Source: a virus. Taken from it: a stretch of 64,000 nucleotides of DNA. The stretch's first letter is position 1, and each line of letters begins with the position of its first letter. Location: positions 1 to 64,000 of the IMG/VR virus record IMGVR_UViG_3300020451_000152. One strand, given 5' to 3'. Made by a program: the position numbers and the translations under genes. Shown piece by piece: positions 50,094-63,644 of this stretch. Under the pieces are notes generated by a model. The model saw nothing but the letters and a program-made list of their open reading frames with translations, made no database searches and was not told where the DNA came from.

Positions 50094-50151
50094 ATTATAG
50101 TGGGTTTTGGGGGTCAGTGGGGTGAGTGTGTACCACTTTGTCCACTGGCAC
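50094..50151 (-). promoter_or_regulatory. Repeated operator promoter, copy A
   Basis: TATAAT at 50094-50099. The inverted repeat (50130-50151) has half-sites GTGCCAGT and GTACCACT around a 6-bp centre; distance 30 bp. No -35. The transcript start region reads TAGTATAAAC, shared with copies D and F. Confidence 0.75.
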
Positions 50152-50152
50152 A

Positions 50153-50467
50153 CTAGACCCCTTGGTCTAGCAATAAATCTTTAAGATAGTCCTCGGCACA
50201 CTCTTGTGCTTCGTAGATATCATAAAATTGACCTAAGTGCACACTGTCACCAGTTAAGCAACCGTTATAAGTGTAGTTCATTGTCTGAACTACAAAACGA
50301 TCTGCACCATAGTGGTAGATCGCTAGATTTGGATCTAGATCATTATTTCTAGTATATTTGTCAAACATATTTGAAGAGAATGTTTTCTCATACTCAAAAT
50401 TGAGATAGTCATCAGTTAAATCGATTGACTGAGAGAAGAGAGATTTAGTTGTATTTGAATTGTTCAT
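50153..50467 (-). CDS. Hypothetical protein (104 aa), possibly leaderless
   Basis: Acidic, aromatic protein with SIDLTDDYLNFEYEKTFSSNMF and YDIYEAQECAEDYLKDLLLDQ. A longer frame exists to 50581, but it would run through the promoter (copy B), so the true start is the ATG at 50467. That ATG is only 6 bases after the TATAAT, placing it at or next to the predicted transcript start. No family recognised. Confidence 0.66.
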   Translation of the reverse strand: MNNSNTTKSLFSQSIDLTDDYLNFEYEKTFSSNMFDKYTRNNDLDPNLAIYHYGADRFVVQTMNYTYNGCLTGDSVHLGQFYDIYEAQECAEDYLKDLLLDQGV

Positions 50468-50473
50468 ATCTCT

Positions 50474-50532
50474 ATTATACACACAAAAGGGGTCAGTTTG
50501 GGGGATTTGTGTGCCACTTTGTGCACTGTCAC
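50474..50532 (-). promoter_or_regulatory. Repeated operator promoter, copy B
   Basis: TATAAT at 50474-50479, inverted repeat at 50511-50532 (half-sites GTGACAGT, GTGCCACT), distance 31 bp. The operator overlaps the stop codon of the upstream gene. Confidence 0.75.
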
Positions 50533-50768
50533 CAACAGGGGTCATCTTCCTCCTCAAATGATATAGGATTAAAAGAATCAAACTCTAGTTTGTATCCTAT
50601 AACTTTTGCATCTTCATATAGTTGGGTGTTCTTATCATAGTATGAAACATTACTATCAAGATATTCCTGGATATGTTTGCATAGTTGATAGGGGTTAATC
50701 TTATGATCATCGTTATCATTATTATCTAATGATATTCTTACATTAAGATTAACAAAATTGTTACTCAT
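50529..50768 (-). CDS. Hypothetical protein (79 aa)
   Basis: Begins MSNNFVNLNVRISLDNND; GGGAGG lies 9 bases upstream of the ATG at 50768, which decided the start over a longer frame to 50792. Ends in an acidic tail SFEEEDDPCW. Mostly polar with one amphipathic strand. No family recognised; its 3' end is part of operator copy B. Confidence 0.62.
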   Translation of the reverse strand: MSNNFVNLNVRISLDNNDNDDHKINPYQLCKHIQEYLDSNVSYYDKNTQLYEDAKVIGYKLEFDSFNPISFEEEDDPCW

Positions 50769-50931
50769 TAACAGCAACCTCCCACATATCACAATAAACT
50801 GTTAACCAGTTTCTTTGATCTTCTGTTAGAGTATCATCAGTGCATAGTAAATCATCAGCACTAATAAACTCTTTATTTTCTAAAGTGCACCAGTCTGATA
50901 ACACTTCAGTCATAAATTCCATTTTGCTCAT
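50761..50931 (-). CDS. Small hypothetical protein (56 aa)
   Basis: An acidic 56-residue ORF, MSKMEFMTEVLSDWCTLENKEF then a DDTLTEDQRNWLTVYCDMWE helix. Linked to the gene upstream by ATGA. It carries the ribosome binding site of the next gene in its 3' end, which suggests coupled expression. Function unknown. Confidence 0.58.
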   Translation of the reverse strand: MSKMEFMTEVLSDWCTLENKEFISADDLLCTDDTLTEDQRNWLTVYCDMWEVAVNE

Positions 50932-51110
50932 TGACATAAATCCTCAAATCGTTTGGTGGTTTCTATCTCAATATCAGGGATAGTGCCTGTTTTTGAATTT
51001 TGTTCAAGTGCATATAACTGGTCATCGGTTAAATTGTTCTTGTTTCTATATTCTATCCATACTTCATCATAGATTGTTTCTAATAGTGTTTCATGATGTA
51101 GAACTGACAT
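50928..51110 (-). CDS. Small hypothetical protein (60 aa)
   Basis: Helical, acidic, MSVLHHETLLETIYDEVWIEYRNK then LTDDQLYALEQNSKTG. The repeated x-D-D-Q-L-Y type segment is shared in style with its neighbour (TEDQRNWL). The ATG directly follows the stop of the previous gene (no gap). No family recognised. Confidence 0.58.
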   Translation of the reverse strand: MSVLHHETLLETIYDEVWIEYRNKNNLTDDQLYALEQNSKTGTIPDIEIETTKRFEDLCQ

Positions 51111-51326
51111 TTATGCAACCTCCATAGTTCGATAGTCATTGACAACAGTTTTTTTACCATAGTTATCAATCAGAATTGTTCGATTAGTCTTAGGGGTGTA
51201 ACCATGTTTGTCAGTTTCCCCTATGATGTAATTTACTAAAACTAAATGCTCTGTTTTGTAACCAGTTTCATCAGTCATAATAACAACATCACCAACACCG
51301 ATCTCTTTAGGTGAATTGTATTTCAT
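51111..51326 (-). CDS. Small beta-rich protein (71 aa)
   Basis: Reads like a small beta barrel: IGVGDVVIMTDETGYKTEHLVLVNYIIGE then RTILIDNYGKKTVVNDYRTMEVA. The SH3- or KOW-like rhythm of strands suggests a nucleic-acid or protein-binding fold, but this is a guess from pattern. It overlaps the upstream stop by one base. Confidence 0.6.
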   Translation of the reverse strand: MKYNSPKEIGVGDVVIMTDETGYKTEHLVLVNYIIGETDKHGYTPKTNRTILIDNYGKKTVVNDYRTMEVA

Positions 51327-51544
51327 TATGCAACCTCCCTGATATATCCATTTTCTGATTTTATGAACTGGTCTAGCATAGGAATATGTAGATCTGGATC
51401 ATCAAAATCGATCTTAGCACATCCATCAACACCCCACTCTGCTAACTCTTGAACGAACTCATCCCAATTAGCACAACAGCATGCCATATTTTGAAAATTG
51501 TCAACTTCGAGGATTCTGTTGATGATTGTTTGAGTTTTTGTCAT
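51326..51544 (-). CDS. Small Cys-containing protein (72 aa)
   Basis: Starts MTKTQTIINRILEVDNFQNMACCCANWDEFVQELAEWGVD; the ACCCANW run of three cysteines is unusual in such a short phage protein. An in-frame extension to 51616 would overlap the promoter (copy F), so I used 51544. No family recognised. First gene of a five-gene chain down to 50529. Confidence 0.62.
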   Translation of the reverse strand: MTKTQTIINRILEVDNFQNMACCCANWDEFVQELAEWGVDGCAKIDFDDPDLHIPMLDQFIKSENGYIREVA

Positions 51545-51570
51545 AGTTTCTGAATTTCTTTGTATACTAT

Positions 51571-51628
51571 TATTATAGTGTATTTTGTGACCTATGCGAG
51601 GGATGTTGTGACACATATTTAACTGTCC
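51571..51628 (-). promoter_or_regulatory. Repeated operator promoter, copy F
   Basis: TATAAT at 51571-51576, inverted repeat at 51607-51628 (right half-site GTGACACA; left AGGACAGT, weaker), distance 30 bp. The initial transcript TAGTATACAAA resembles copies A and D. Confidence 0.65.
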
Positions 51629-51888
51629 TAAAAGAATGATGGTGTTTTAGGTGTTACTGGTAATTCTACCTTAGTAAATAATCTGTTCATGATATCTCTA
51701 ACTCTCTCTCTGTCTAGTGAATCACCATTGCCCCATGTATAATCGGTTACATGATCTGATGCACACATATCTAAGTGCATTAAAGTAGCGTATGCAATTT
51801 GTTCTTTAGTTCTCTGGTTCTCAGGGTAGATGCCATCTTTACCATAGAATGAAAGTACATAGTCAAGAAATTCTGCAAAGTTGTTCAT
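51628..51888 (-). CDS. Hypothetical protein (86 aa)
   Basis: Helical protein with MNNFAEFLDYVLSFYGKDGIYPE at the N-terminus and DHVTDYTWGNGDSLDRERVRDIMNRL in the middle. A strong AAAGGAG precedes the ATG. It is the sole gene between promoter copies C and F. No family recognised, though the DSLDRERVRDIM helix is conserved-looking. Confidence 0.65.
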   Translation of the reverse strand: MNNFAEFLDYVLSFYGKDGIYPENQRTKEQIAYATLMHLDMCASDHVTDYTWGNGDSLDRERVRDIMNRLFTKVELPVTPKTPSFF

Positions 51889-51912
51889 GTTTCTCCTTTG
51901 TTTGTTATCTTA

Positions 51913-51970
51913 ATTATAAAGGACTATGTACTAAATTAGTGCTATGATGTGACACTTTGATGACTGGCAC
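51913..51970 (-). promoter_or_regulatory. Repeated operator promoter, copy C
   Basis: TATAAT at 51913-51918, inverted repeat at 51949-51970 (GTGCCAGT, GTGACACT), distance 30 bp. The operator is inside the last codons of the upstream gene. Confidence 0.75.
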
Positions 51971-52115
51971 TAGATGCTGCTATTTTATCAAGTTTGGTGA
52001 TAATATCCTCTAGATCATCAAGTTCAACTTCAGTCAAATCTATTGCCATTTGTTCAATACACCATAGCAAGAGATCCGCTTGATTTCGATCAACAGTGAT
52101 TTCTGTTTGTGACAT
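51942..52115 (-). CDS. Small acidic protein (57 aa; could start at 52160)
   Basis: An acidic helical protein, MSQTEITVDRNQADLLLWCIEQM then LTEVELDDLEDIITKLDKI. An in-frame ATG at 52160 overlaps the upstream stop and would give 72 residues, but a TATAAT at 52149-52154 lies inside that extension. If that promoter works, translation must begin at the later ATG, 52115. The C-terminal codons double as operator copy C. Function unknown. Confidence 0.58.
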   Translation of the reverse strand: MSQTEITVDRNQADLLLWCIEQMAIDLTEVELDDLEDIITKLDKIAASSASHQSVTS

Positions 52116-52148
52116 TTGGTGATTTACCTGATTTTTGATTGAGTTTGT

Positions 52149-52207
52149 ATTATACATCATAAGAACTCAAATATCAAGTAGTCCAGTGTAACATTTAATT
52201 GTTTACA
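52149..52207 (-). promoter_or_regulatory. Weak tenth candidate of the operator promoter family
   Basis: TATAAT at 52149-52154, with a degenerate GTGTAACA half-site 31 bp further out (52186-52207). The second half-site is poor, so I list it only as possible. Confidence 0.35.
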
Positions 52208-52288
52208 TTGAACTTCAAAATGTTCAAGTGATTCGATGTTAGTTTCTAGATCAAAATGATCTGTTTGAATAATAAATTCACTAGGCAT
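52157..52288 (-). CDS. Very small protein (43 aa)
   Basis: A 43-residue ORF, MPSEFIIQTDHFDLETNIESLEHFEVQ then LNVTLDYLIFEFL, overlapping the upstream gene by 7 bases and the next start as ATGA. Helical and hydrophobic at the end, though without a membrane span. Unknown. Confidence 0.52.
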   Translation of the reverse strand: MPSEFIIQTDHFDLETNIESLEHFEVQCKQLNVTLDYLIFEFL

Positions 52289-52517
52289 GATTAGACCAGT
52301 AAATTGCATTAACCTCGGCAATGTTTAGATAATCTTTATCATGATAGGTCATTACATCAACATCTTCATAATCAAAAATGAACTCTTCACAAAAATGCTC
52401 AACAGATGCAAGTTTTTGATGTTCAATACATCTTAGCATTTCACCTATTTGATAATCATCCATGTCACATTCATCGATGCAAAATGCAATGTTTTTCTCT
52501 AATTGTGTTGTGTTCAT
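52281..52517 (-). CDS. Hypothetical protein (78 aa)
   Basis: Starts MNTTQLEKNIAFCIDECDMDDYQIGEMLRCIEHQK, an acidic helical protein with four cysteines, two in CIDEC. I placed the start at 52517 because it overlaps the previous stop as ATGA; an ATG at 52532 is also in frame. The N-terminal helices resemble those of the 119-residue gene only loosely. Unknown function. Confidence 0.6.
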   Translation of the reverse strand: MNTTQLEKNIAFCIDECDMDDYQIGEMLRCIEHQKLASVEHFCEEFIFDYEDVDVMTYHDKDYLNIAEVNAIYWSNHA

Positions 52518-52873
52518 TGATTTGCAAGACATAAAAGTTTACCTAGTAAGAGTGAATTAGTACGACAAGTTTCATCATCTTTGTATTCTTTTTTAATCTC
52601 ATTGAATACAAGTTCAATTAACTTTTCATACTCATCAATCTGTAGATCAGTGGAATCATCAAAGATTTGCTGACTCCATGCGAACTGAGTTTGTTGATCA
52701 GTTGGTTTCATTAGTTCCTCAATTACTACTTTATCAATATACTCGTTATCGGGTGAGTATTCAACCCCTCTTGTGTCAGTTTGTTGACTGTCATCAGGTG
52801 GCATCCAAATTCCCTCTCCTGTCATATAATAACCTGCATCTATCATTTCTTGATACGATGATACTTTAGTCAT
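52514..52873 (-). CDS. Hypothetical acidic protein (119 aa)
   Basis: MTKVSSYQEMIDAGYYMTGEGIWMPPDDSQQ, then a long acidic helical part (NEYIDKVVIEELMKPTDQQTQFAW; IDEYEKLIELVFNEIKKEYKDD). No membrane segment, no recognised family. It sits in the chain of genes transcribed from promoter copy D. Confidence 0.62.
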   Translation of the reverse strand: MTKVSSYQEMIDAGYYMTGEGIWMPPDDSQQTDTRGVEYSPDNEYIDKVVIEELMKPTDQQTQFAWSQQIFDDSTDLQIDEYEKLIELVFNEIKKEYKDDETCRTNSLLLGKLLCLANQ

Positions 52874-52877
52874 GATT

Positions 52878-53009
52878 TTAGTAGGTTAGTTTATCAAAGA
52901 ATGTTTCAATCTCTTTAGGTAGATCATCAATCATACCGTTATCTCTCAAGAGATCATATAATTTAATGAGTTGATATTGCTCATCAAATGTAATTTCAAA
53001 TGTGTTCAT
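52878..53009 (-). CDS. Very small protein (43 aa)
   Basis: A 43-residue ORF, MNTFEITFDEQYQLIKLYDLLRD then DDLPKEIETFFDKL, starting with a TAATG overlap and ending 5 bases before the next gene. The regular helix pattern (EITFDEQYQLIKLYDLL) supports coding. Unknown function. Confidence 0.55.
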   Translation of the reverse strand: MNTFEITFDEQYQLIKLYDLLRDNGMIDDLPKEIETFFDKLTY

Positions 53010-53236
53010 TATGCTCCTTTAAATGATATTGAGTTTGAGTAATTTAGTTTATTAAATATACACGATTGATGTATATTAAAGAGTAAATCGAAGTTAACTC
53101 CCTCCCAATCTGTCCACTCTGAAACATAATCAGTGACATCAAAATCACCTGTTCCGTTAACATTTAGTGGGCATGATTTGAAATCATTGTTATCATCAAC
53201 CCAGAATAATCTACCGAATTGTTCACTACTATACAT
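53009..53236 (-). CDS. Hypothetical protein (75 aa)
   Basis: MYSSEQFGRLFWVDDNNDFKSCPLN then a DVTDYVSEWTDWEGVNFDLLF section; polar, beta-rich. The start at 53236 follows a GGAGGG by 11 bases, which lies in the 3' end of the upstream membrane gene, suggesting coupling. A TTG at 53254 is less convincing. No family recognised. Confidence 0.6.
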   Translation of the reverse strand: MYSSEQFGRLFWVDDNNDFKSCPLNVNGTGDFDVTDYVSEWTDWEGVNFDLLFNIHQSCIFNKLNYSNSISFKGA

Positions 53237-53238
53237 GA

Positions 53239-53385
53239 TTAATTGTCCCTCCAAGGTGAATTAAAGTATGCTTTATTTACAGTATAAATTGTGAAGATTG
53301 CAACAACAATACCAGCGAAACCAAGTAGTAAAATTGGGGATTTGGGGATGTCATACTGAGGAATAGAGGTGAGTAAAATGTTCAT
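53239..53385 (-). CDS. Small single-span membrane protein (48 aa)
   Basis: A 48-residue ORF with one hydrophobic span (about residues 16-35, SPILLLGFAGIVVAIFTIY) and a short basic end. It carries the ribosome binding site of the next gene. Likely an inner-membrane peptide; function unknown. Confidence 0.57.
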   Translation of the reverse strand: MNILLTSIPQYDIPKSPILLLGFAGIVVAIFTIYTVNKAYFNSPWRDN

Positions 53386-53421
53386 TGAATGTTAATTAAG
53401 GTTTGCAATTAGTGGTGATGA

Positions 53422-53832
53422 TTATCTCAAATAGAGATAACCACCTGCCCAATCTGTAAAGTTTGGATCATGTAATTTAGCACGATCATTAATAACTCTC
53501 ATGTCAAATCGTACATACTTTGTGTGAGGTGATTTCCATGATGCTGGTTTGTAAACTTGACCAGTCTCTTTATTAACAAATGCGTGTACACTACCATCAC
53601 GATACTCATTTCTATTTTGAAATGTATCAAAATCTTGCTGAATGATTTTGTAGTATTTTCTACCTGACTCAACTTTGAATCTCATCAAGTTTTCACGATC
53701 TGTGTAACCTTGACGAGTATGATACAGTCTATAATTTTCTGTAATGGTCGCAGCATATCTTTCTGTCCATTCTTGTACTCTTGTTGTGAGTGTTTTTGTT
53801 TCATACTCGGCACTTGTAAGAGTTGTAGTCAT
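53422..53832 (-). CDS. Hypothetical protein (136 aa)
   Basis: A well-formed soluble protein: MTTTLTSAEYETKTLTTRVQEWTERYAATITENYRLY, a basic core (GYTDRENLMRFKVESGRKYYKIIQQDF) and an aromatic C-terminus (KYVRFDMRVINDRAKLHDPNFTDWAGGY). The ending resembles conserved cyanophage proteins of unknown function. It is the first gene after promoter copy D, with a leader of some 20 bases. Confidence 0.7.
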   Translation of the reverse strand: MTTTLTSAEYETKTLTTRVQEWTERYAATITENYRLYHTRQGYTDRENLMRFKVESGRKYYKIIQQDFDTFQNRNEYRDGSVHAFVNKETGQVYKPASWKSPHTKYVRFDMRVINDRAKLHDPNFTDWAGGYLYLR

Positions 53833-53858
53833 GTAGTTCTCTGTTTGTTTATACTACT

Positions 53859-53916
53859 ATTATACATCCCCTAGAGCATCAGTGAGTGCGTTTTGTACCA
53901 CTTTGTTAGTTGGCAC
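53859..53916 (-). promoter_or_regulatory. Repeated operator promoter, copy D
   Basis: TATAAT at 53859-53864 contains the TAA stop codon of the methyltransferase gene; inverted repeat at 53895-53916 (GTGCCAAC, GTACCACT), distance 30 bp, inside the same gene. Confidence 0.75.
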
Positions 53917-54834
53917 ACGCTCATCGATTAGTGTAGAATATTCTTCATGCAGTTCACATCCTATGTAATGCCTACCCAAATCTTTAGCAACCATCGCAGT
54001 GGTTCCCGATCCTATGAACGGATCTAATATAATATCACCTTTTTTGCTCCCTGCCTTAATGCAAGGTATAATTAAATCAGGTGGATATACTGCAAAATGT
54101 GCACCTTTATAAGGTTTGTTTGTTATTGACCAAACAGACCGCTTGTTTTTTGTAGGATAAGACTTGGATAACCCACTATGAGGAACCAGACCAGTGCCAG
54201 GATTATGGTACTTACCTTTAGTGCGGTCTCTTGTACCCCAGTCTTTTGCTGGTTCTTTGATTGCTTCATTGTCATAATAGTATTTTTTGTTTTTACTTAG
54301 TAGGAACAAATATTCATGTGATTTAGTACATCTATCTCTAACAGATTCTGGCATAGGATTAGGTTTATGCCAAATAATATCTTGCCTTAAATACCATCCA
54401 TCTTGCCTTAATGCAAATGCTAACATCCAAGGGATGCCGATTAAATCTTTCTCTTTTAATCCATCTAATTTATTACCTCTACGAGCACATTTATCTGGTA
54501 GATCTTGTTTAGTATTAGAAACAGTTTGTTTAACTAATGCTTGACCTTTTCCTGGTCTATAGTTATAATAACTATCACCAATATTCACCCATAATGTACC
54601 ATCATCAGTTAAACAGTTTCTAACTTCTCTGAATATATCTACTAGATTAGATATATATTTTTCTGGTGTATCTTCCTGACCTATTTGTTTATCTTCACCA
54701 CCATAATCTCTTAGTCCGTAGTATGGTGGTGATGTAATACACATCCTAGGTTTATCACATATACCAGTAGTAATGTGTCCTTTTAAAATGTCAAGAGTGT
54801 GACGACAATCACCATATAATATAGTATCTTTCAT
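53860..54834 (-). CDS. Beta-class DNA methyltransferase (N4-cytosine or N6-adenine)
   Basis: A 324-residue enzyme that transfers a methyl group from S-adenosylmethionine to an exocyclic amino group. Motif IV TSPPYYG (34-40) precedes motif I DPFIGSGTT (271-279), the beta-class order; TSPPY is more usual for N4-cytosine than N6-adenine. The RRGNKLDGLKEKDLIGIPWMLAFALR segment and DIIWHKPNPMPESV are standard for this class. No nuclease is fused. It may protect phage DNA or mark it. It shares a transcript with the SF2 helicase. Operator copy D lies in its last codons. Confidence 0.9.
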   Translation of the reverse strand: MKDTILYGDCRHTLDILKGHITTGICDKPRMCITSPPYYGLRDYGGEDKQIGQEDTPEKYISNLVDIFREVRNCLTDDGTLWVNIGDSYYNYRPGKGQALVKQTVSNTKQDLPDKCARRGNKLDGLKEKDLIGIPWMLAFALRQDGWYLRQDIIWHKPNPMPESVRDRCTKSHEYLFLLSKNKKYYYDNEAIKEPAKDWGTRDRTKGKYHNPGTGLVPHSGLSKSYPTKNKRSVWSITNKPYKGAHFAVYPPDLIIPCIKAGSKKGDIILDPFIGSGTTAMVAKDLGRHYIGCELHEEYSTLIDERVPTNKVVQNALTDALGDV

Positions 54835-54983
54835 CAGTTAAGATTCACTCTCTTGATATCTACATCACCATATTGTTCTCTTACTGTTCTCTCAGCAGCA
54901 GCATAATTTGTTGCTGGAACTTCAACATCAATTAAACCCATATCGTTACGATAAAATGTAACTGTAGCAGTACGATAAGACAT
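54834..54983 (-). CDS. Small protein (49 aa), paralogue of the next gene
   Basis: A 49-residue protein, MSYRTATVTFYRNDMGLIDVEVPATNYAAAERTV, clearly of the same design as the 58-residue gene upstream (MSY, then a strand pair, then an alanine-rich helix and a final strand). Ends directly on the methyltransferase start (TGATG). Function unknown; the fold looks like a beta-beta-alpha-beta unit. Confidence 0.62.
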   Translation of the reverse strand: MSYRTATVTFYRNDMGLIDVEVPATNYAAAERTVREQYGDVDIKRVNLN

Positions 54984-54985
54984 AG

Positions 54986-55162
54986 TTAGTTAGAAACAGG
55001 GGGAACAGTTGTTAAACATTTAATTACTTCAATCTCAGTACCACCAAGATTAGTTTGAATTAAATTCTTTGCAGCATTTGGTGTGCTTGCAGTAACTTCT
55101 TCAGTAAAATGTTTTCTACCATTTGGAAGTTTACGATAGGTTACTTGTTGAACATAAGACAT
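54986..55162 (-). CDS. Small protein (58 aa), paralogue of the gene after it
   Basis: A 58-residue protein, MSYVQQVTYRKLPNGRKHFTEEVTAS then NAAKNLIQTNLGGTEIEVIKCL. AAAGGAG precedes the start. It and the following 49-residue gene look like a tandem duplication that has diverged. Unknown function. Confidence 0.63.
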   Translation of the reverse strand: MSYVQQVTYRKLPNGRKHFTEEVTASTPNAAKNLIQTNLGGTEIEVIKCLTTVPPVSN

Positions 55163-55188
55163 AGTTAGATTCTCCTTTAATGTAATAT

Positions 55189-56361
55189 TTATCGGGTTAC
55201 AGTTGATATTGCTGGTAACCCTTGATTGAAAATAGTATCAACAACTGCTTCAACTTTTCTTGCAGTGCTAATACCAACTTTTGAATAAACTGGTACACAT
55301 ACCATACCATAGACCTTATCAGCATTGCCTGTACGGATAACTCTACCTATTGTTTGACTGATACCTATGTAATCCATAGATCTCATAAACAACACTGCTT
55401 CAAGTCCATTGACATTGATACCTTCTGATAGTATGCTATGATGCAATACAACAAACTTTGTATTGTCAGCACCCCATGTATTCAATGTTTTAAAGAATAC
55501 ATCACGAGATACTTTCTTACCATTGATGACTGCACCAGTTTTGGATGTAATATACATCCAAGAATAACCTCTATTTGATAACTCAATACAAAAATCTGAT
55601 TGAGATACTAATTGAGTAATTTGTTTTGTAGATTTAGCACATATTAGTACTTTATCTTTTTCTAAATTATCAATTGCCTCTAGCATATTGTCAGATTCTA
55701 CCTCTGCATAGATCTCATCTTTTTTCATTAGATCTCTTTTGTATACTTCAACTTTTGGTGGTAGAATGTAACCCTGCTCAACTAATTGAGGTGCTGGTAC
55801 ATTACAAATAACATCACCAAAAATATCAGTGTCATTCATACCTATTTTGAATGGACTCAAACTATGCTTAGGTGTAGCAGTAAAGAAGTATGATCTCTTA
55901 GCATATATTGAAAGATGCTCAACTGCTTCAATAAAGTTTTTTTGTACACTATTGTGTGCTTCATCAAAGTATATTGTATCAACTTCAATATCAAGTGATT
56001 CAGATACTCTATGCAATGAATGATATGTTGTGAATATCAATAGATTATTTCTGCTATTGTTATACCAGTGCTCCAATTCATCAGTTTTTGTTGTACTATT
56101 ATACTTTGTATCACCACTATGTACATGAATAACTTCTGCATCAATAAACTGTAGAAATTCTTCACATAATTGATGTGCTAATAGTATACGAGGTGCAACA
56201 ACTACTACAGTATGTGCAAACTTCTCATTTCTAGCAAATAGTCTTTTAGTATCTTCAATCATACACATTGTTTTACCACCACCTGTAGGAATGATAACCT
56301 TACCTTTAGGTGTGTTTGACATTGAGTCTAGAGCGTCAATTTGATGTGGTCTTAGTTGCAT
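55189..56361 (-). CDS. SF2 DEAH helicase (restriction/UvsW-like)
   Basis: A 390-residue DNA translocase or helicase. Motif I PTGGGKT (25-31), motif II DEAH (133-136), motif III TATP (161-164) and motif VI QTIGRVIRT (336-344) are complete. LRPHQIDAL at the start is the Q-motif-like region of Type I/III restriction and UvsW-type helicases. It is shorter than T4 UvsW (503) and lacks its N-terminal domain. I used the ATG at 56361 because the longer reading starts with TTG. Driven by promoter copy H. Roles could be recombination, origin unwinding or a restriction-type system. Confidence 0.88.
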   Translation of the reverse strand: MQLRPHQIDALDSMSNTPKGKVIIPTGGGKTMCMIEDTKRLFARNEKFAHTVVVVAPRILLAHQLCEEFLQFIDAEVIHVHSGDTKYNSTTKTDELEHWYNNSRNNLLIFTTYHSLHRVSESLDIEVDTIYFDEAHNSVQKNFIEAVEHLSIYAKRSYFFTATPKHSLSPFKIGMNDTDIFGDVICNVPAPQLVEQGYILPPKVEVYKRDLMKKDEIYAEVESDNMLEAIDNLEKDKVLICAKSTKQITQLVSQSDFCIELSNRGYSWMYITSKTGAVINGKKVSRDVFFKTLNTWGADNTKFVVLHHSILSEGINVNGLEAVLFMRSMDYIGISQTIGRVIRTGNADKVYGMVCVPVYSKVGISTARKVEAVVDTIFNQGLPAISTVTR

Positions 56362-56381
56362 AATGAATTTCAATTACCTTA

Positions 56382-56438
56382 ATTATAGCATAAAAAAAGA
56401 CCCCCGAAGGGGTCTTGTGACAGTTATTTGATTGCCAC
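56382..56438 (-). promoter_or_regulatory. Repeated operator promoter, copy H
   Basis: TATAAT at 56382-56387, inverted repeat at 56417-56438 (GTGGCAAT, GTGACAGT), distance 29 bp, overlapping the stop of the upstream gene. A terminator is placed inside the spacer. Confidence 0.72.
56391..56416 (-). terminator. Terminator with UUCG tetraloop
   Basis: Minus strand: AAGACCCC-TTCG-GGGGTCTT followed by a T run. An 8-bp stem with an extra-stable loop, in the spacer between operator H and its -10. Confidence 0.9.
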
Positions 56439-56723
56439 TCTCTCTGGAACTTTAACATCTAGATTTTGTAGGAAATTAACTACAAATGCTTCCAGATAGA
56501 TCAAAGGGAGTATAACAAAATCAATACCTCTAAGTTTTGTGAATTTAGAGTAATCAACTGTTTTAACTTCTTCATTGACATTTAGTGTCAATGTTTCTGC
56601 TTTAACTTCTTCAGTCACAATTGGTTTAGCAACTGGAGTATTTAGAGTTTTAGTAACAGTTGTTTTACGAGTGCGTCTTTTGCGAGGAGTTGTAACTTTC
56701 TTCGCTGTAGATGCAGTTGGCAT
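56424..56723 (-). CDS. Hypothetical protein (99 aa), basic N-terminus and membrane-like end
   Basis: MPTASTAKKVTTPRKRRTRKTTVTK is a strongly basic, disordered start; the middle is acidic and the end has a hydrophobic segment (about residues 67-83, GIDFVILPLIYLEAFVV). Could bind nucleic acid and the membrane. The start at 56723 is the first ATG. It is preceded by the 385-nt structured leader, which may regulate it. No family recognised. Confidence 0.6.
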   Translation of the reverse strand: MPTASTAKKVTTPRKRRTRKTTVTKTLNTPVAKPIVTEEVKAETLTLNVNEEVKTVDYSKFTKLRGIDFVILPLIYLEAFVVNFLQNLDVKVPERVAIK

Positions 56724-57108
56724 AGAATAATAATGCAATGGATGGGCGAAACATTAAGGGTAATGTAATTTTAATTCAACATCATGTCTCTACTTCTTGT
56801 TTGAGAGGAGTGGGGCAATGATCTGGGTTTCACCCAGTTGCCCAAATTTACCTACTGGGAATCGCTTACACCTGTACCCCCAAACTTAATCGGGGCAGTA
56901 GAACCACATATCCAAATGGGACTTACAACTTCAAAACTGTCTTTTCAGATGTCCGAGGACATCAGCAGTACTAGAGGTCTCCAAACATAAAGAGCAGTTA
57001 TCCACAGCGTGATCAAAGATCATCTGAATTGTTGCTCACCCCTGCCTAGCGTTTGCCCATTCTCAAAACTGTTAGAGTAGTTGAACCCTTAACTGTTTCG
57101 CTCTTCTA
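56724..57108 (-). ncRNA. Candidate structured leader or small RNA
   Basis: A 385-bp stretch without a convincing gene but dense in RNA stems on the minus strand. They include GGGCAA/TTGCCC enclosing CTGGGT-GAA-ACCCAG (56813-56843), CUACUG/CAGUAG enclosing a C4-G4 hairpin (56852-56901), GATGTC/GACATC (56948-56963) and GAGCA/TGCTC enclosing TGATC-TTT-GATCA (56992-57037). Transcription would start near 57102 from copy E, giving a leader before the 99-residue gene or an independent RNA. I do not match it to a known class. Confidence 0.6.
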
Positions 57109-57165
57109 TTATAACGCATCTAGGTCACTGTGCAATCGTCGTTGTGACACTTTATCAACTGGTTC
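57108..57165 (-). promoter_or_regulatory. Repeated operator promoter, copy E
   Basis: TATAAT at 57108-57113, inverted repeat at 57144-57165 (GAACCAGT, GTGACACT), distance 30 bp. Unlike the other copies it also has a fair -35 (TTGCAC, 57130-57135, spacer 16). It lies within the end of the upstream gene. Confidence 0.75.
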
Positions 57166-57285
57166 TTCAATGAATGTTCTTTCTTTACCATCTTCAGTGA
57201 GAATAACCCTAGATCTTTCTGTACTACCTGCCTCCCTTACATATATTGTAATGCCACCATCGGGTGATTCATAAATTTTTGGCAT
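57109..57285 (-). CDS. Small hypothetical protein (58 aa)
   Basis: A 58-residue ORF, MPKIYESPDGGITIYVREAGSTERS then VILTEDGKERTFIEEPVDKVS. It reads like a small beta hairpin protein with acidic ends. TAATG overlap with the upstream stop. Its 3' end carries promoter copy E and its stop codon lies in the -10. Unknown function. Confidence 0.62.
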   Translation of the reverse strand: MPKIYESPDGGITIYVREAGSTERSRVILTEDGKERTFIEEPVDKVSQRRLHSDLDAL

Positions 57286-57485
57286 TAGTAAAACCTCGGT
57301 GCAGTTGGATAATTTCTTAATTCTAATTCAATTTCATCAAATATTCTATTGAGTGATCTTGCATAATCTCTATATGCACTACCAACATAAATTTGACCTG
57401 CTACAACTGAAAATGTAGCAATGCCCCAGAATAGATAGTAAAATTTACTTTTTACTTGTGCTCTTAGTTTTTCTTTAACTTGCAT
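57285..57485 (-). CDS. Small membrane protein (66 aa)
   Basis: A 66-residue protein with MQVKEKLRAQVKSKFYYLFWG, then a hydrophobic segment (about residues 14-34, FYYLFWGIATFSVVAGQIYVG) and a polar C-terminus. GGAG lies 7 bases before the ATG at 57485, which decided the start over 57497. A TTTACA-N17-TATAAT promoter lies just upstream. Inner membrane; function unknown. Confidence 0.65.
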   Translation of the reverse strand: MQVKEKLRAQVKSKFYYLFWGIATFSVVAGQIYVGSAYRDYARSLNRIFDEIELELRNYPTAPRFY

Positions 57486-57504
57486 GATTGTCTCCATCCC
57501 CGAT

Positions 57505-57533
57505 ATTATACCATTTTATGAGATGGATGTAAA
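57505..57533 (-). promoter_or_regulatory. Sigma-70-type promoter TTTACA-N17-TATAAT
   Basis: Minus strand -35 TTTACA (57528-57533) and TATAAT (57505-57510), spacer 17. It has a -35 and lacks the inverted-repeat operator, unlike most neighbouring promoters. Confidence 0.7.
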
Positions 57534-57541
57534 CCCTATCG

Positions 57542-58258
57542 TTATTTGTTGTAATTAATATTGTAGATATGGAACATCATACCATGATAACCAGAATTAT
57601 ACTTTTTACCACTACCTTTCATTTGTAGATGAAATAGTTTTCTACCATCCTCTAATCTAAACTCTAGTGTAGTATTATTTAATGTCCATCTACCCTTCTC
57701 AACTTGTTTCTCCATCATATTTACTGCTACCATCCTGAGTAAATCAGATCCTTTAGTATGCCATATAATAGTATCAACTGCATCACCTTCAAATCCTCTT
57801 CTAACAATAACATCAAATATTGAACACTTGTTTTTATTCATCCATGTTACAAATGAACTGCAAACTTTCTTCTCTATATTATTTTTATACACCCTATTTT
57901 GATGTATCTCTTTTTCACTAAGATTTAAATCAGGATGTCTCTCTTGTACAATAGATTTTAATTCTGGATTAGGATAACCAAAGAACATTCTAAGGAATGA
58001 CTCACTATGTCCTTTAATCTTAAAGTGTTTGATAAACTTCTCAGTTGATAGTAATGCTACTTGAGTATGATTCTTTGATATACTCTTGATAGAATATTTT
58101 CTCTTACTAGTCTCTTCATACATATCTACCTTAGTTTGTGGTCTCCCATCAACTTTATGCTCACCACCAAATAATTGGTCGAATAGAGCAGCAAGTTTAT
58201 GTTCAAACTCATGCCCTGCTTTCTTTGCTTTTTTACCAGCAGTTATAGATGCAGTCAT
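57542..58258 (-). CDS. PD-(D/E)XK-like nuclease candidate
   Basis: A 238-residue protein resembling Type II restriction endonucleases. A basic lead (ITAGKKAKKAGHEFEHKLAALFDQLF) contains a conserved-looking Glu; then VDMYEETSKRKYSIKSIS gives an Asp before a strand and SIK in place of (D/E)xK, a variant seen in some restriction enzymes. The frame opens at 58282, but that ATG lies within a -10 box, so I placed the start at 58258. Possible DNA-cleaving role; the catalytic set is not proven. Near a methyltransferase and helicase. Confidence 0.6.
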   Translation of the reverse strand: MTASITAGKKAKKAGHEFEHKLAALFDQLFGGEHKVDGRPQTKVDMYEETSKRKYSIKSISKNHTQVALLSTEKFIKHFKIKGHSESFLRMFFGYPNPELKSIVQERHPDLNLSEKEIHQNRVYKNNIEKKVCSSFVTWMNKNKCSIFDVIVRRGFEGDAVDTIIWHTKGSDLLRMVAVNMMEKQVEKGRWTLNNTTLEFRLEDGRKLFHLQMKGSGKKYNSGYHGMMFHIYNINYNK

Positions 58259-58280
58259 TTCAGATCGTTTAGGTATCTTC

Positions 58281-58338
58281 ATTATATTCTATTAGTATTG
58301 AATAAACAATGGATGTGTGACAGTTATTTGATTGACCT
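58281..58338 (-). promoter_or_regulatory. Repeated operator promoter, copy I
   Basis: TATAAT at 58281-58286, inverted repeat at 58317-58338 (right half-site GTGACAGT, left AGGTCAAT), distance 30 bp. The sequence shares 18 consecutive bases with copy H. It overlaps the stop of the halogenase-like gene. Confidence 0.72.
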
Positions 58339-59682
58339 TATATCAAATGTTAGTTCACCATGTACCTCATTTAAATCTACATGAGGTGCTAATAATGGGA
58401 ACTTGTCAGCATAATCAGCACCCATACCATAAGACCACTCTACAAAATCTTTATAATTACCTGCAAAGTTAGGTAGGTCATGTCCAATATAATCATGTAT
58501 TTTACCATAGATAAAATCTTGAGTCAATTTAGGGTCATTTGCAATAATATTATAAAAGTCATCGGTAAAGTTTTGATCTTTATTTAATATACTGAAATTC
58601 ATAATTTCTTTAGTGTTTAATAAATTCTTAGAATCTTTAACAATATTTCTCCAGAATGGTGAATCATACTTAGAACCAAAATGATATATCCATGCCATAT
58701 TTTTATACCAGTCATCAACAACTGTTTCATAATACCAGTCATTCAAATGATTAACTAGATCTTGATCATGAGGATTCCCAGTAAGTGCATAATCACATAT
58801 TTGATTTGAAATATAATCATAATACATACCTGCCAAAGATTCTAATGGATCAATAAATCCAATAGCATTGCCATTACGAATATATCTACCACTATGATGC
58901 ACCATATACTTTGATAGTCTAGGTGTCCATTTAAATTTCTTGTATGGATAACCTAGTGCTTCAGGTATTATAGTTCTAAAATCTTTTAATGCCTCCTCCT
59001 CAGTTGTAATATTATCATTATAAGCATATCCAAATGTTCTCCTTGATTGTAATGGTATTCCAAACATCCACCCATTTTGATGAGCATATGATATAGTACA
59101 ACCCCAATCTGCTGTTTCAGGTAATCTTAATGCTAATACACTATTTACAGTTACTAATATAGAATCCAAATAATTATTATCATTCAGCAGTGATTTACCA
59201 CCAGTACAATCAATAACAAAATCAAATCTTTGTTGATATAATTCTGACTTAGATGATGATAGATATACACCATCATGAGTAAACTTAATATCTTTTATAC
59301 TCTCATCCCTTAGTGTCAAATTAGGTGTAAATTTTGGTAGGTAATCTAAAAAGAATTCACTAAAATATTTTGTATCAAAGTGCATACCCACTGAGTGTGG
59401 GTCTAACCATCTAACAAAATTGTGTTTTTTACCCCATCCAATAAACTTATTACCAAACTTAACTGTAGTATCAAAATATTTCTTAAAATGAGGTACTGCT
59501 AGTGTTGTAGTATGTGCTATTTGTGATGGTAGGTCAGGTGTAGTTGACTCACCTATACCAAATATATTGACATCGGAGTCATATATCCATGTCAATTCTG
59601 TATCAATATCTCTCTCATCAATTAACCTTAATAGACAATTGATGCCAACAACACCTGCACCTATTACTGCTATCTTTTTCAT
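58324..59682 (-). CDS. Flavin-dependent (tryptophan) halogenase-like protein A
   Basis: A 452-residue FAD enzyme. GAGVVG at 8-13 is the dinucleotide loop, FGIGESTTP at 41-49 the GEST motif, VKFGNKFIGW places Lys75 where the family's catalytic lysine lies, and GWMFGIPL is a WxWxI variant with Phe for the second Trp. RYIRNGNAIGFIDPLES is the conserved flavin-lid region. These fit the tryptophan halogenase family, which also includes non-halogenating members. Adjacent paralogue B lies 2 bases upstream. Substrate unknown; free tryptophan, indoles or a protein residue are conceivable. Confidence 0.83.
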   Translation of the reverse strand: MKKIAVIGAGVVGINCLLRLIDERDIDTELTWIYDSDVNIFGIGESTTPDLPSQIAHTTTLAVPHFKKYFDTTVKFGNKFIGWGKKHNFVRWLDPHSVGMHFDTKYFSEFFLDYLPKFTPNLTLRDESIKDIKFTHDGVYLSSSKSELYQQRFDFVIDCTGGKSLLNDNNYLDSILVTVNSVLALRLPETADWGCTISYAHQNGWMFGIPLQSRRTFGYAYNDNITTEEEALKDFRTIIPEALGYPYKKFKWTPRLSKYMVHHSGRYIRNGNAIGFIDPLESLAGMYYDYISNQICDYALTGNPHDQDLVNHLNDWYYETVVDDWYKNMAWIYHFGSKYDSPFWRNIVKDSKNLLNTKEIMNFSILNKDQNFTDDFYNIIANDPKLTQDFIYGKIHDYIGHDLPNFAGNYKDFVEWSYGMGADYADKFPLLAPHVDLNEVHGELTFDIRSIK

Positions 59683-59683
59683 A

Positions 59684-61069
59684 CTAATATGTTTTATATC
59701 CTATGGTTCCAAATTCCTCTGGTGAATAGCAATGATCTAACATATTAAAACGATCTGCATATGGAGCACCTAGTCCAGTTGCTAATTCAGAAAATAATGT
59801 ACGATCATTCATTATCACAAATGGCACAACTCTTTGTCTACCACCTATATCTTCAACATCATTATCAATGTGAATGAGTTTTTTATAATCCTCATCAGTC
59901 CATTCATCATTCAACACTTCATCTAACCAAGGTTTTCCTGGAAAAAATGCAGGATGTAAATATCTCTCTTGAGATAAGAACTTTCTTGCTTCTACTTTAA
60001 TATCTTTCCAAAATTTTGTATCAAATCTTGAACCATACATGTACATGAATGATAGGTGTGATTGATAATCCATTGCCAATAGTTCATAATATGTCTCTTC
60101 AACATGTTCTTTAATTTTCTCTATCCCCGATCCATCTTTATGAATGAAATGAGTGTACATTGCAATTGACTCACACATAACATGAACGCACTCATGATGA
60201 CATGCAGTTAGTGGCATAATATCAATCAATGACGACCCATTTCTAATATATCTACCAGTAGTGGGACAAATAACATAATTAGATACTTTAGGAACCCAAT
60301 TTCTTTTCTTAAACTTCCATGTACTCACATCATCATCAGGAAATGCTTCCTGAATATCTTTCATAATTTCTTCATCAGTTGTATCTTTACGATGTATTGA
60401 ATCATACATGTAAATCCATAACTGTTTACTCTTAAGAGGAATACCAGTCATGTGACCATATTTACCTGCATATTCAATACAATAATCCCAGTGACCTGCT
60501 TCTGGTTTTTCTAGAATGATAGCAGTATTTACTGGTCTAAGACTAGGATCACCATAAGCATTACTATCAAAGAGTGGATTTTTCTCTGTACAATCAATAA
60601 CATAATCATAATTAACACCATTGATAATTGCAGCATCAGGATTAATTAAAACAGAATCAATTTTTTCCTCTATAATCTTTACACCATCACCAAAACATTT
60701 ACCACCATCTTTTACCATTGCAGTTCTAAACATTTCAATATCAAAGAACTTTGCAGTTTGTGAATGAAATGATAATTGAAAATTCTTATCACTTTGACCC
60801 CATCCAATATATTTGTACCCATGACAATCTTTAGCATCAGCATATTTTTCCATCCACCTTTTAGTCACATTTGACAATACTTGTAGACCATCAAAAAATG
60901 CAGGATTTGTACCTGACATCATTTCAGGGTAAACTTTATCAGGATCATGTATTAATACATACTCATCATCTTTAAACATAGAGTATAAATTATATTTTGT
61001 GAGTTGTAACGATGCTAACTGTACAAAACCTGCTGCACTAGCACCCACCACTGCAATTTTTCTTGTCAT
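59684..61069 (-). CDS. Halogenase-like paralogue B, active-site degenerate
   Basis: A 461-residue relative of protein A, with matching RYIRNG and GWG segments and similar length. The loop is GASAAG rather than GxGxxG, the GEST motif is replaced by MMSGTNPAFFD, the aligned catalytic-lysine position is Cys82 (DCHGYKYIGW) and the WxWxI becomes HMTGIPL. It could still bind flavin or act as a structural or regulatory partner. It overlaps the upstream oxygenase by 4 bases. Confidence 0.72.
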   Translation of the reverse strand: MTRKIAVVGASAAGFVQLASLQLTKYNLYSMFKDDEYVLIHDPDKVYPEMMSGTNPAFFDGLQVLSNVTKRWMEKYADAKDCHGYKYIGWGQSDKNFQLSFHSQTAKFFDIEMFRTAMVKDGGKCFGDGVKIIEEKIDSVLINPDAAIINGVNYDYVIDCTEKNPLFDSNAYGDPSLRPVNTAIILEKPEAGHWDYCIEYAGKYGHMTGIPLKSKQLWIYMYDSIHRKDTTDEEIMKDIQEAFPDDDVSTWKFKKRNWVPKVSNYVICPTTGRYIRNGSSLIDIMPLTACHHECVHVMCESIAMYTHFIHKDGSGIEKIKEHVEETYYELLAMDYQSHLSFMYMYGSRFDTKFWKDIKVEARKFLSQERYLHPAFFPGKPWLDEVLNDEWTDEDYKKLIHIDNDVEDIGGRQRVVPFVIMNDRTLFSELATGLGAPYADRFNMLDHCYSPEEFGTIGYKTY

Positions 61070-61620
61070 TTTGAATAATTTATACTTGGGGTATTTAGAT
61101 AGTTGATATTTAATAGTAACCTTCTATCTGTAGTTGGTGGTGAACCAGCATGTAATACATTTGAAGGGAACATAATTAATCTACCTTGTTTAGGTGTTAC
61201 TGAGTCAAGTATATTATGGTTGTGATCAAACATAAATGTGTTACCAGTAGCATCATGTGGATAGTATATAAAACTATATGCTTTATTATTAGTATTATCT
61301 ATATGTGGAATATAATGCTCTGGTTTATCTGGAACTGGTGTCTGTAATATTGCTCTAGTTCTATAATGATATCCTTGAGGACATAATTCATCTTTAATTT
61401 TAGATAGTAACCCACATATTAAATTGTGTAGTAAATGGTCATTAACATTCTGCTCTTTATCATATACTGCATGTACAAATTGTGAATAACCTTTATTATT
61501 CTCATCCATGTATGGTTGATAACACCAATGTGTCTCAGGACTCATTATAAAATCCCTGATAACAGATTGATATGTTGGTGTTATAAAATCATCAAATACT
61601 TTAAACTTAAGAGGGGTCAT
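61066..61620 (-). CDS. 2OG-Fe(II) oxygenase (HxD type)
   Basis: A 184-residue dioxygenase: HID at 106-108, distal His157 (LHAGSPP), Arg166/Arg167 (DRRLLLN). Start at MTPLKFKVFDDFITPTY, which is the natural N-terminus of such proteins; the in-frame extension upstream overlaps the previous gene and has no signal. It lies immediately upstream of the two halogenase-like genes and probably works with them. Substrate unknown. Confidence 0.8.
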   Translation of the reverse strand: MTPLKFKVFDDFITPTYQSVIRDFIMSPETHWCYQPYMDENNKGYSQFVHAVYDKEQNVNDHLLHNLICGLLSKIKDELCPQGYHYRTRAILQTPVPDKPEHYIPHIDNTNNKAYSFIYYPHDATGNTFMFDHNHNILDSVTPKQGRLIMFPSNVLHAGSPPTTDRRLLLNINYLNTPSINYSK

Positions 61621-61879
61621 CCTTTTTATATAATGAATTGATAGGTATGATCTTATCGTCAAGTAAGAAATCAAAATTACGATCAGGATCTTCAAAGTTC
61701 TCTTCTACATTATCAATGAATCCTTTTAAGTCTCTAATTAATTCCCAACATGAGTCTACCTCAAGTCTCTCCTCAGGTGATAGATCATCAAATCTACCCA
61801 TACGAGCATAATAATTATATTTGGCAGTAATGTACTCCCTGACTTTAATAAAGTCTTTAAATGTTGCTACTGCTGCCAT
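61607..61879 (-). CDS. Hypothetical helical protein (90 aa)
   Basis: A 90-residue acidic helical protein, VATFKDFIKVREYITAKYNYYARMG then LSPEERLEVDSCWELIRDLKGF. Overlaps by 14 and 13 bases with the genes on either side, so it is part of the same operon. The long helices and ERLEVDSCWELI suggest a small coiled-coil adaptor. No family recognised. Confidence 0.6.
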   Translation of the reverse strand: MAAVATFKDFIKVREYITAKYNYYARMGRFDDLSPEERLEVDSCWELIRDLKGFIDNVEENFEDPDRNFDFLLDDKIIPINSLYKKDDPS

Positions 61880-63033
61880 TGTTTTACTACTGTAATGTTT
61901 GCTTTTCTAAAATCGTCATCGACAAACTTTAGTGCTGTACCGTTATATGATACCACATAACCCTCTGGTTGTGAAGGTCTATTGTCAACAAATGTCTTGA
62001 TATCAGTAACCTTATTAAGTTGATTGATAATCATTTTCTTTGCTAAACGAATTGATAGATATGATGCAACGGTAAAATATATATCCATTTCATACTTAGC
62101 AATGAACGCAATACCCATACTCTTCATATGCTCATATCTTTTCTTACCCTTTTCTGATTTCTTACTAGCAATCTCCTCATCCATCTTAGTTGAGTAGAAC
62201 TTAGCAAACTGTTGAGCAACATTTCTAACACTACCTAATCCTTTACCTGATCTGATAACCTGATTAAAGAACTGTTTGAATAATGTTGCCATCACAAATT
62301 TAGACTCACCATACTCTTGAATGATATCAAGAAACTTAGATGAACGCTTGAGTGATCCTTGTGCTTTGTTGATGATAGCAGTATACTTTGCTGAATCTCT
62401 AACATCAAAGTTTGACATACCAGTATAAACAGAACTAGCAACCCATACATCTTTAGTGCTATTGTATTGTGGTGCTTTATTATATACTGCAGTAGATCCA
62501 GCGATAGTATCACCTTGATATACTGTATGGAATACTATACCTAACTCAGATGGTATAACTTGCTCACCTAATGGTGTGTTTGCCTGTATAGCATATCTTA
62601 GAGCGTTAGGTTGAAATGTAACATATTGAGTATCACCTATACTACCCCATGAACAATCACCTTGAGTGAATAATAAATCACCTTGAATAATACCTTTAAT
62701 ATTAAGTTGAGGAAGATATTTAAGACAAGTCTTTAGTTTATCTCTCAATATATTTGACTGATAGTATCGATCAATATCTGTATCATCATAACATACTTTA
62801 GGTGTAACTTTATTGAATACAGATTTAGTACCAACAAAGAATCTACCAGTAACAGGATCAGTGCCACATACAATTGCTGGTGCACCATCCCATTTAGTAC
62901 TGATAGTTAGAGTGCTCTTTCTACCTGATAAAACATAACCAAATTGTCTTAGTAAATCTACAACCTCAATACCACCAGCAGTGCCAGTGTTAAGAATATT
63001 ATCTTCGAGGTGCTCTAGGTGTGTGTTTTTCAT
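61867..63033 (-). CDS. DUF6267-type covalent nucleotidyltransferase (ligase-like)
   Basis: A 388-residue protein of the nucleotidyltransferase superfamily (DNA/RNA ligases and capping enzymes). Motif I is KWDGAPA with Lys47 as nucleotide acceptor; IIQGDLLF (115-122) and GIVFHT (165-170) correspond to motif III/IIIa; EGYVVSYN (357-364) and ALKFV (367-371, Lys369) to motifs IV and V. A mostly helical insertion of about 180 residues separates IIIa from IV. THLEHLEDNIL is typical of DUF6267 phage proteins. The start at 63033 is 6 bases after a TATAAT (copy G). Target nucleic acid unknown. Confidence 0.76.
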   Translation of the reverse strand: MKNTHLEHLEDNILNTGTAGGIEVVDLLRQFGYVLSGRKSTLTISTKWDGAPAIVCGTDPVTGRFFVGTKSVFNKVTPKVCYDDTDIDRYYQSNILRDKLKTCLKYLPQLNIKGIIQGDLLFTQGDCSWGSIGDTQYVTFQPNALRYAIQANTPLGEQVIPSELGIVFHTVYQGDTIAGSTAVYNKAPQYNSTKDVWVASSVYTGMSNFDVRDSAKYTAIINKAQGSLKRSSKFLDIIQEYGESKFVMATLFKQFFNQVIRSGKGLGSVRNVAQQFAKFYSTKMDEEIASKKSEKGKKRYEHMKSMGIAFIAKYEMDIYFTVASYLSIRLAKKMIINQLNKVTDIKTFVDNRPSQPEGYVVSYNGTALKFVDDDFRKANITVVKQWQQ

Positions 63034-63039
63034 ACCCTT

Positions 63040-63096
63040 ATTATAGTGCATGACAGGGTTTTTGGGGGGTTTTGTGGACAGTTTGTAATGTGTCAC
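63040..63096 (-). promoter_or_regulatory. Repeated operator promoter, copy G
   Basis: TATAAT at 63040-63045, inverted repeat at 63075-63096 (GTGACACA, TGGACAGT), distance 29 bp. It drives the nucleotidyltransferase, oxygenase and halogenase-like operon. The ATG at 63033 is 6 bases after the -10. Confidence 0.68.
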
Positions 63097-63644
63097 CGAA
63101 ATGCTTTCCCTGCTAAGTGTGCAACCATAGATCTCCTGATACCACGAGTAACAGGTGTAATCCTATGCAAACAAAAACTAGGAAATACAATCAATGTACC
63201 CTTATCTCTAGGTAAATCATCAAACAACTCTGTGTGATGTATTTGTAGATCACCACCATCATATTCATTACCATTACTAAGTTGTAATGAGAATCCAATC
63301 TTTCTTTGTGGTGCATCATCACTCAAATCATTATCTACATGCCAATTATAATGACAACCATCATCTTCATATCTTATATATTGTAAATTCTCAAATCCTT
63401 CAGCATCAAAATGATACCATCTACTATTAATCTCTCTAGCAATATCACCAATACGATTATAAATCCACTCTACATCTTTATCAAATGCTATAAATGAGTT
63501 CCAAGATTTACGAATAGGATTAATAGAACTGACATCAATTCCTGACATTTTGACACCAATATCCTCACCAATTTGTGTTATTTTATCACACTCTTCATTG
63601 GTAAAAGCATTTGGTATGCAATGTGGATCTAATCTTGGATTCAT
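63093..63644 (-). CDS. 2OG-Fe(II) oxygenase, PKHD-like
   Basis: A 183-residue dioxygenase: HVD at 102-104 (NWHVDND), distal His160 (LHRITPV), Arg170/171 (RGIRRSMVAHL). GGDLQIHH and RKIGFSLQLS are characteristic of the PKHD/PiuC-type group. It is a tandem relative of the next gene, with the shared LHxxTPVTRGxRRS end and ATGA overlap. Substrate unknown. Its 3' end abuts operator copy G. Confidence 0.84.
   Translation of the reverse strand: MNPRLDPHCIPNAFTNEECDKITQIGEDIGVKMSGIDVSSINPIRKSWNSFIAFDKDVEWIYNRIGDIAREINSRWYHFDAEGFENLQYIRYEDDGCHYNWHVDNDLSDDAPQRKIGFSLQLSNGNEYDGGDLQIHHTELFDDLPRDKGTLIVFPSFCLHRITPVTRGIRRSMVAHLAGKAFR

Follow-up and report, generated by a model that had tools for sequence, protein, structure and literature searches.

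Dyad promoters at the locus

The DNA considered here, the window, comprises positions 1-64,000 of the IMG/VR virus record IMGVR_UViG_3300020451_000152, which measures 74 kb as a whole. Its minus strand carries nine copies of a 24-bp inverted repeat, or dyad, each at a fixed distance upstream of a TATAAT box, and these copies probably belong to a class of promoters of T4-like cyanophages. A first-pass annotation of the window had claimed nine dyads on this strand, and all nine were found where it had placed them, each with an exact TATAAT 29-31 bp past the dyad end as drawn there. The palindrome itself stood up to inspection, but the proposed length of 22 bp with six central bases did not: the dyad is 24 bp long with a 4-bp centre. 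A -35 element had been said to be missing in eight of the nine sites, and eight indeed score at most three of six -35 matches, site 57144 being the sole one with four (TGCACA, spacing 15).

The copies are described below with their TATAAT boxes, predicted starts of transcription (+1) and predicted targets, all on the minus strand. Dyad TGTGCCAGTGGACAAAGTGGTACA (50129..50152; TATAAT 50094-50099, +1 ~50087) would serve the gene at 49745-50062 (phrog_554), and GGTGACAGTGCACAAAGTGGCACA (50510..50533; TATAAT 50474-50479, +1 ~50467) the open reading frame (ORF) at 50153-50467. Further along, TAGGACAGTTAAATATGTGTCACA (51607..51630; TATAAT 51572-51577, +1 ~51565) and AGTGCCAGTCATCAAAGTGTCACA (51948..51971; TATAAT 51913-51918, +1 ~51906) are predicted to drive the genes at 51326-51544 (phrog_9580) and 51628-51888 (phrog_7799), respectively. 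Dyad TGTGCCAACTAACAAAGTGGTACA (53894..53917; TATAAT 53859-53864, +1 ~53852), which sits within the 3' end of the methyltransferase gene, has as its predicted target the gene for a DUF7717 protein homologue at 53422-53832. The predicted target of AGTGGCAATCAAATAACTGTCACA (56416..56439; TATAAT 56382-56387, +1 ~56375) is the helicase ORF at 55189-56361. Downstream of AGAACCAGTTGATAAAGTGTCACA (57143..57166; TATAAT 57108-57113, +1 ~57101), a non-coding stretch is predicted to be transcribed first. Dyad AAGGTCAATCAAATAACTGTCACA (58316..58339; TATAAT 58281-58286, +1 ~58274) is followed by a first ATG at 58258, which opens an ORF extending to 57542; this product had been called nuclease-like, and it has just a weak match to a PHROG of unknown function. 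Finally, a divergent dyad at 63074..63097 (TATAAT 63040-63045, +1 ~63033) precedes its predicted target, a DUF6267/phrog_455 gene. Its proximal arm (ACTGTC-CACA) is one base longer, and the matrix built for the class does not find the site as such. Good dyads ahead of genes of this family in P-SSM2 and P-TIM40 were the reason to accept this copy. In the 74-kb record, promoters with the exact pattern are confined to 50-58 kb, the divergent site at 63 kb being an extra one. Together, the nine copies may control nearly all genes between 49.2 and 63.0 kb, as the first-pass annotation had suggested.

The pairing of half-sites with TATAAT in the window is not random. Eight pairs of a half-site with at most one mismatch and a TATAAT lie at exactly 28-30 bp, where 0.11 would be expected; 300 simulated windows (second-order Markov sequences) contained a mean of 0.11 and a maximum of one such pair. 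At all other distances up to 90 bp, the window holds a single pair.

Promoter architecture in relatives

The spacing is conserved in related phages, so that neither random placement of the sites nor loss of the spacing, two outcomes that would have refuted the first-pass annotation by its own standards, was observed. In IMG/VR, 80 loci surrounding relatives of the methyltransferase in the window (0.95 Mb) had an exact TATAAT at 28, 29 and 30 bp in 14, 57 and 25 cases, respectively, and in zero to three cases at each other distance up to 74 bp. In a set of 486 unique promoters from relatives, to which the counts in this section refer, the gap is 29 bp in 348, 30 bp in 85 and 28 bp in 53. The refined consensus reads TGTGMCAGTT-N4-AASTGKCACA, followed by 28-30 bp and then TATAATA; of the two arms, the promoter-proximal one is by far the stronger. 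Since the loci used to train the matrix were picked by half-site plus TATAAT, the conservation of the proximal arm and of the -10 is in part built in; this does not apply to the distal arm, the spacing distribution, the sequence at the start or the taxonomic restriction. Dyad and -10 were scored separately, since at a low threshold the combined matrix is passed by strong palindromes through their dyad score alone and does not tell real from shifted spacing.

Seven nucleotides past the TATAAT, 462 promoters have a purine, and 376 have a pyrimidine just before that position, giving the dinucleotide YA at the predicted -1/+1. Most ATG codons lie ~15-21 nt beyond the predicted +1, and ORFs start at a median of 24 nt past the -10. 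Thus, the predicted start fits a normal sigma70 start, and this signature agrees with the earlier proposal that transcription begins about 7 nt after the TATAAT. Leaderless mRNAs are predicted at 63033 and 50467 (minus strand), where the ATG coincides with the predicted +1. The family of proteins beginning with MKN[TK]H, represented in the window by the DUF6267/phrog_455 gene, is predicted to be leaderless also in P-SSM2 and several IMG/VR loci, as well as in P-TIM40, where the protein begins with a similar MAKNTH. An ATG at +1 occurs in 31 of the 486 promoters, a number to which the frequent AT at +1/+2 may contribute. Besides the MKN[TK]H family, recurrent first genes encode a helicase, the DUF7717 family and two further families, which their sequences suggest to be an AAA ATPase and a metallopeptidase-like protein.

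Many copies contain what looks like an intrinsic terminator. A terminator-like hairpin with a T-run lies inside the 28-30 bp gap in 118 of the 486 promoters, compared with 9-17 in shuffled gaps. In the window, such a hairpin and T-run, AGACCCCTTCGGGGGTCTTTTTTT (56388..56415, minus strand), fills the 28-bp gap between the dyad at 56416..56439 and its -10. As these hairpins are located between dyad and -10, an upstream transcript would end within the next promoter. In S-PM2 (NC_006820), a stem-loop reported at 11369-11391 (PMC4503421) falls in the gap between dyad and -10 of a dyad promoter at 11347-11405.

Taxonomic range

Dyads were counted at a cut-off of 18 bits on both strands, so that a near-perfect palindrome can count twice. 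The contig of the window itself has 10, and all seven named T4-like cyanophages scanned carry the dyad, i.e., Syn9 (11), P-TIM40 (16), P-SSM2 (28), P-SSM4 (13), S-PM2 (20), P-HM1 (12) and the freshwater phage S-CRM01 (36). Simulated genomes contain zero to two each. None was found above this cut-off in HTVC008M, a T4-like phage of Pelagibacter, and PSS2, Ma-LMM01 and T4 have at most a stray match to the exact pattern. The dyads of P-TIM40 are strongly associated with TATAAT; in Syn9 and S-CRM01, many precede variant -10 boxes (such as TATTCT or TATGCT; mostly TATTCT in Syn9), often with a gap of 29.

A variant of the class is present in S-TIM5, a phage of marine Synechococcus recorded outside the Kyanoviridae. 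It has six promoters of the same geometry with the half-site [CG]TGGCCCA, one of them GTGGCACA, a gap of 30 and TATA-like -10 boxes, all at 163.8-170.9 kb, where an anti-restriction protein and a Dda-like helicase are annotated. In IMG/VR, this variant was found in one clear S-TIM5-like contig (L412) and otherwise gave mostly chance matches.

A scan of IMG/VR with the proximal arm and a gap of 29 retrieved at least 120 stretches, compared with 93 in all for a control gap of 20, and the distal arm, which is outside the search pattern, scores well above this control in the gap-29 set. Of the 121 loci among the matches listed, all picked by DNA pattern alone, 119 code for relatives of T4-like cyanophage proteins and the other two are fragments of ~1 kb; for control loci, the proportion is 36 of 80. 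Among 84,980 prokaryote species genomes, a scan for the exact whole promoter, as opposed to the bare dyad, found it in just two contigs (L296 and L297), both of a single metagenome bin, TMED113 (Flavobacteriales). Both have tblastn matches to cyanophage proteins and belong to the 121-locus set; they are therefore probably phage contigs binned with a bacterium.

Proposed mechanism and alternative roles of the dyad

That a repeated promoter class with a dimer-type site at fixed spacing exists, as the first-pass annotation had proposed, is supported by the 486 promoters of relatives. In T4-like cyanophages (the Kyanoviridae and their close kin), this class likely consists of activator-dependent promoters, most probably early ones, that work by a dimer mechanism. 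Host RNA polymerase with its primary sigma factor would read the near-perfect TATAATA and begin transcription at the YA 7 nt downstream. Its contact with the -35 would be weak, in keeping with the low enrichment of -35 sequence (TTGAC in 19 and TTG in 108 of the 486 promoters), and a dimeric activator would take the place of that contact. The activator would be a homodimeric DNA-binding protein that occupies the 24-bp palindrome at about -65 to -42 (centre ~-53.5), with the proximal half-site as the most important part; from there, always on one face of the helix, it would hold the polymerase. On average the two arms are symmetric, but at no position in the 486 promoters does their complementarity exceed that of shuffled pairing. 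This lack of covariation, together with the position of the dyad ahead of the +1 that belongs to it, favors a protein dimer bound to DNA over an RNA hairpin, and an attenuator or riboregulator was rejected for want of compensatory changes between the arms.

Several observations weigh against activator-dependent early promoters. The 18-bit scan revealed no dyads in the T7-like cyanophages P-SSP7 and Syn5. The -10 boxes that follow most dyads of Syn9 and S-CRM01 are weak or variant, and few pass the threshold set for the -10. Weak-to-moderate -35 elements are commoner than in shuffled gaps, and some copies may function without an activator. The sequence, spacing, conservation, taxonomic range, start signature and embedded terminators were observed directly; activation by a dimer and early timing are inferred.

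Of the other roles considered, the one that fares best, albeit an unlikely one, is that the dyads serve chiefly in recombination or packaging, or as parts of mobile promoter-terminator cassettes resembling the elements called PeSL, and act as promoters secondarily. The excess of embedded terminators would suit such cassettes, as would the location of most copies in the variable ORF region and the presence of about eight similar copies in one contig (L029). However, the YA start, the ORFs that begin ~24 nt past the -10 and the strictly kept distance to this box speak against such roles, and neither end of a 9.5-kb deletion in S-PM2 (5,799-15,339; PMC4503421) is a dyad. Still less probable is an operator for a repressor, used in host defense or by the phage to shut off its early genes. 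Palindromic sites for dimers are typical of repressors, but the site ends at -42, upstream of the entire core promoter, and a repressor would need neither a rigid spacing to the -10 nor a poor -35. That the copies arose by chance, or by descent from a few duplicated intergenic sequences, is contradicted by the data and has next to no probability left: some neighboring copies in contig L029 are alike, but gaps and flanks differ among copies while arms, spacing and -10 are kept, and simulations give almost none.

The binding protein

For the activator of the dyad promoters, a host DNA-binding protein that is already present at the time of injection is slightly favored over a phage-encoded or virion-delivered one, at roughly even chances. 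The identity of the dimer, too, is inferred. As a hint, the lack of the dyad in HTVC008M fits a cyanobacterial host factor. Two findings count against a host protein and favor a phage-specific binder: the half-site of S-TIM5 is systematically changed (GGCCCA, gap 30), and the scan of species genomes found the exact whole promoter in no cyanobacterial genome.

A phage-encoded or virion-delivered activator of unfamiliar fold, or a fast-evolving one that has diverged together with its sites, is a serious, somewhat less probable candidate. It would account for the near-absence of the exact promoter from the species genomes, and in S-TIM5, a separate lineage, the geometry is the same with half-site and spacing shifted. 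However, no tested protein family fits all carriers, and such a protein would have to be injected if the class is transcribed first. That the binder is neither of the host nor of the phage has a low probability.

None of the five DNA-binding Pfam families tested is common to all dyad carriers. Crp, RHH_1 and GerE have no match in the phages tested, HTH_3 has one weak match, in P-SSM2, and MazE/AbrB has matches in three of the eight phages with dyads or variant dyads; all five were rejected as the regulator on these grounds. The core cyanophage proteins that are missing from HTVC008M contain no recognized DNA-binding regulator domain and are psbA, hli, thyX, MazG, methyltransferase, DUF3110 or of unknown function. 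Three further candidates were discarded: phrog_507 is absent from S-CRM01, the phage richest in dyads, DUF7717 is absent from P-HM1, and phrog_516 has a homologue also in the dyad-free HTVC008M. The latter is a basic protein of 47 amino acids, encoded at 46112-46255 (minus strand) and found in all T4-like cyanophages examined and in S-TIM5.

More broadly, it is conceivable, if on the doubtful side, that one dimeric activator outside the recognized phage regulator families, either a host protein recruited to sites of a form not used by the host or a new type delivered by the phage, starts infection across a family of picocyanobacterial viruses, marine and freshwater, at promoters that hold the terminator of the preceding operon between activator site and -10. 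The dyad promoters bear on the way in which T4-like cyanophages initiate transcription in the absence of Alt, ModA, MotA and AsiA. The 24-bp site at its fixed spacing offers a bait for retrieving the activator. The dyad promoter may also serve as a predictor of promoters in environmental cyanophage contigs and as a sequence tag for T4-like cyanophages, given the 119 of 121 pattern loci among the matches listed. Should a host protein bind the dyad, this protein would give many phages a common point of entry and might be a locus of resistance.

Non-coding modules and neighboring genes

Downstream of the promoter at 57108, two conserved non-coding modules are found at 56925-57070 and 56796-56917 (minus strand). 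The latter shares 91% identity with P-SSM2 positions 56706-56817, which carry no annotation, and keeps five base pairs in which both sides have changed. In three other contigs (L012, L189 and L050), the modules are separated, each with its own upstream dyad promoter. A search of Rfam with the stretch 56796-57070 gave no meaningful family match, and the modules are candidates for one or more new cyanophage RNAs.

The region 58324-61069 of the window contains a gene of the tryptophan-halogenase family (58324-59682, minus strand) and a neighboring ORF of 461 amino acids that has no Pfam match. In Syn9, two annotated tryptophan halogenases are located side by side.

Comparison with known systems

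The presumed binder resembles Class I and II activators such as CRP and NtcA in that it would bind a palindrome as a dimer, at a set distance from a sigma70 -10 further downstream. The sites of these activators are centered at -41.5 or -61.5, whereas the center of the dyad is at ~-53.5. A CRP or NtcA site was rejected, as the consensus is neither TGTGA-N6-TCACA nor GTA-N8-TAC.

The first-pass annotation had viewed the dyads as a replacement for MotA at middle promoters of the T4 type. Its premise, that cyanophages lack MotA and AsiA, is borne out by the literature on cyanomyoviruses (PMC2984593; PMC5780444). These phages have no alt, modA, modB, motA or asi, and the control of their early and middle genes was called unclear in 2010 (PMC2984593); they also lack T4-like middle promoters (PMC5780444). 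In T4, MotA binds as a monomer to an asymmetric box that is centered at -30, lies 12 bp ahead of the -10 and replaces the -35 (PMC2988021). T4 middle promoters and dyad promoters have in common a good sigma70 -10, an activator site in place of the -35 and their nature as a phage-specific class. They differ in that the dyad is a palindrome near -53.5, located 29 bp before the -10 instead of 12 bp. A MotA-type box was rejected on position, the proximal arm ending 28-30 bp before the -10 in the 486 promoters. Also, the genes predicted to be served are small ORFs, a helicase and similar genes of a variable region of early type, which does not match middle promoters. Thus, a replacement of MotA at such promoters is less likely.

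The elements called PeSL, from the work of Arbiol in 2010 and Comeau in 2014, reportedly are composites of a terminator and an early promoter between variable genes of T4-like phages. Few of them were seen in S-PM2 by Puxty et al. (PMC4503421). If the dyad promoters are early ones, they would resemble these elements in combining a terminator with such a promoter between variable genes, but here the terminator-like hairpin lies within the promoter, between activator site and -10, and in about a quarter of the copies.

The abstract of the 2016 study by Doron et al. is said to describe a novel element for early genes in Syn9, with similar results in P-TIM40, and to assign host-like promoters to middle genes, which makes the reading of the dyads as middle promoters the weaker one. 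In both phages, the dyad is present upstream of -10 boxes, and it is probably this early-gene element. Relative to that element, the span across the Kyanoviridae, the variant in S-TIM5 and the embedded terminators are new here.

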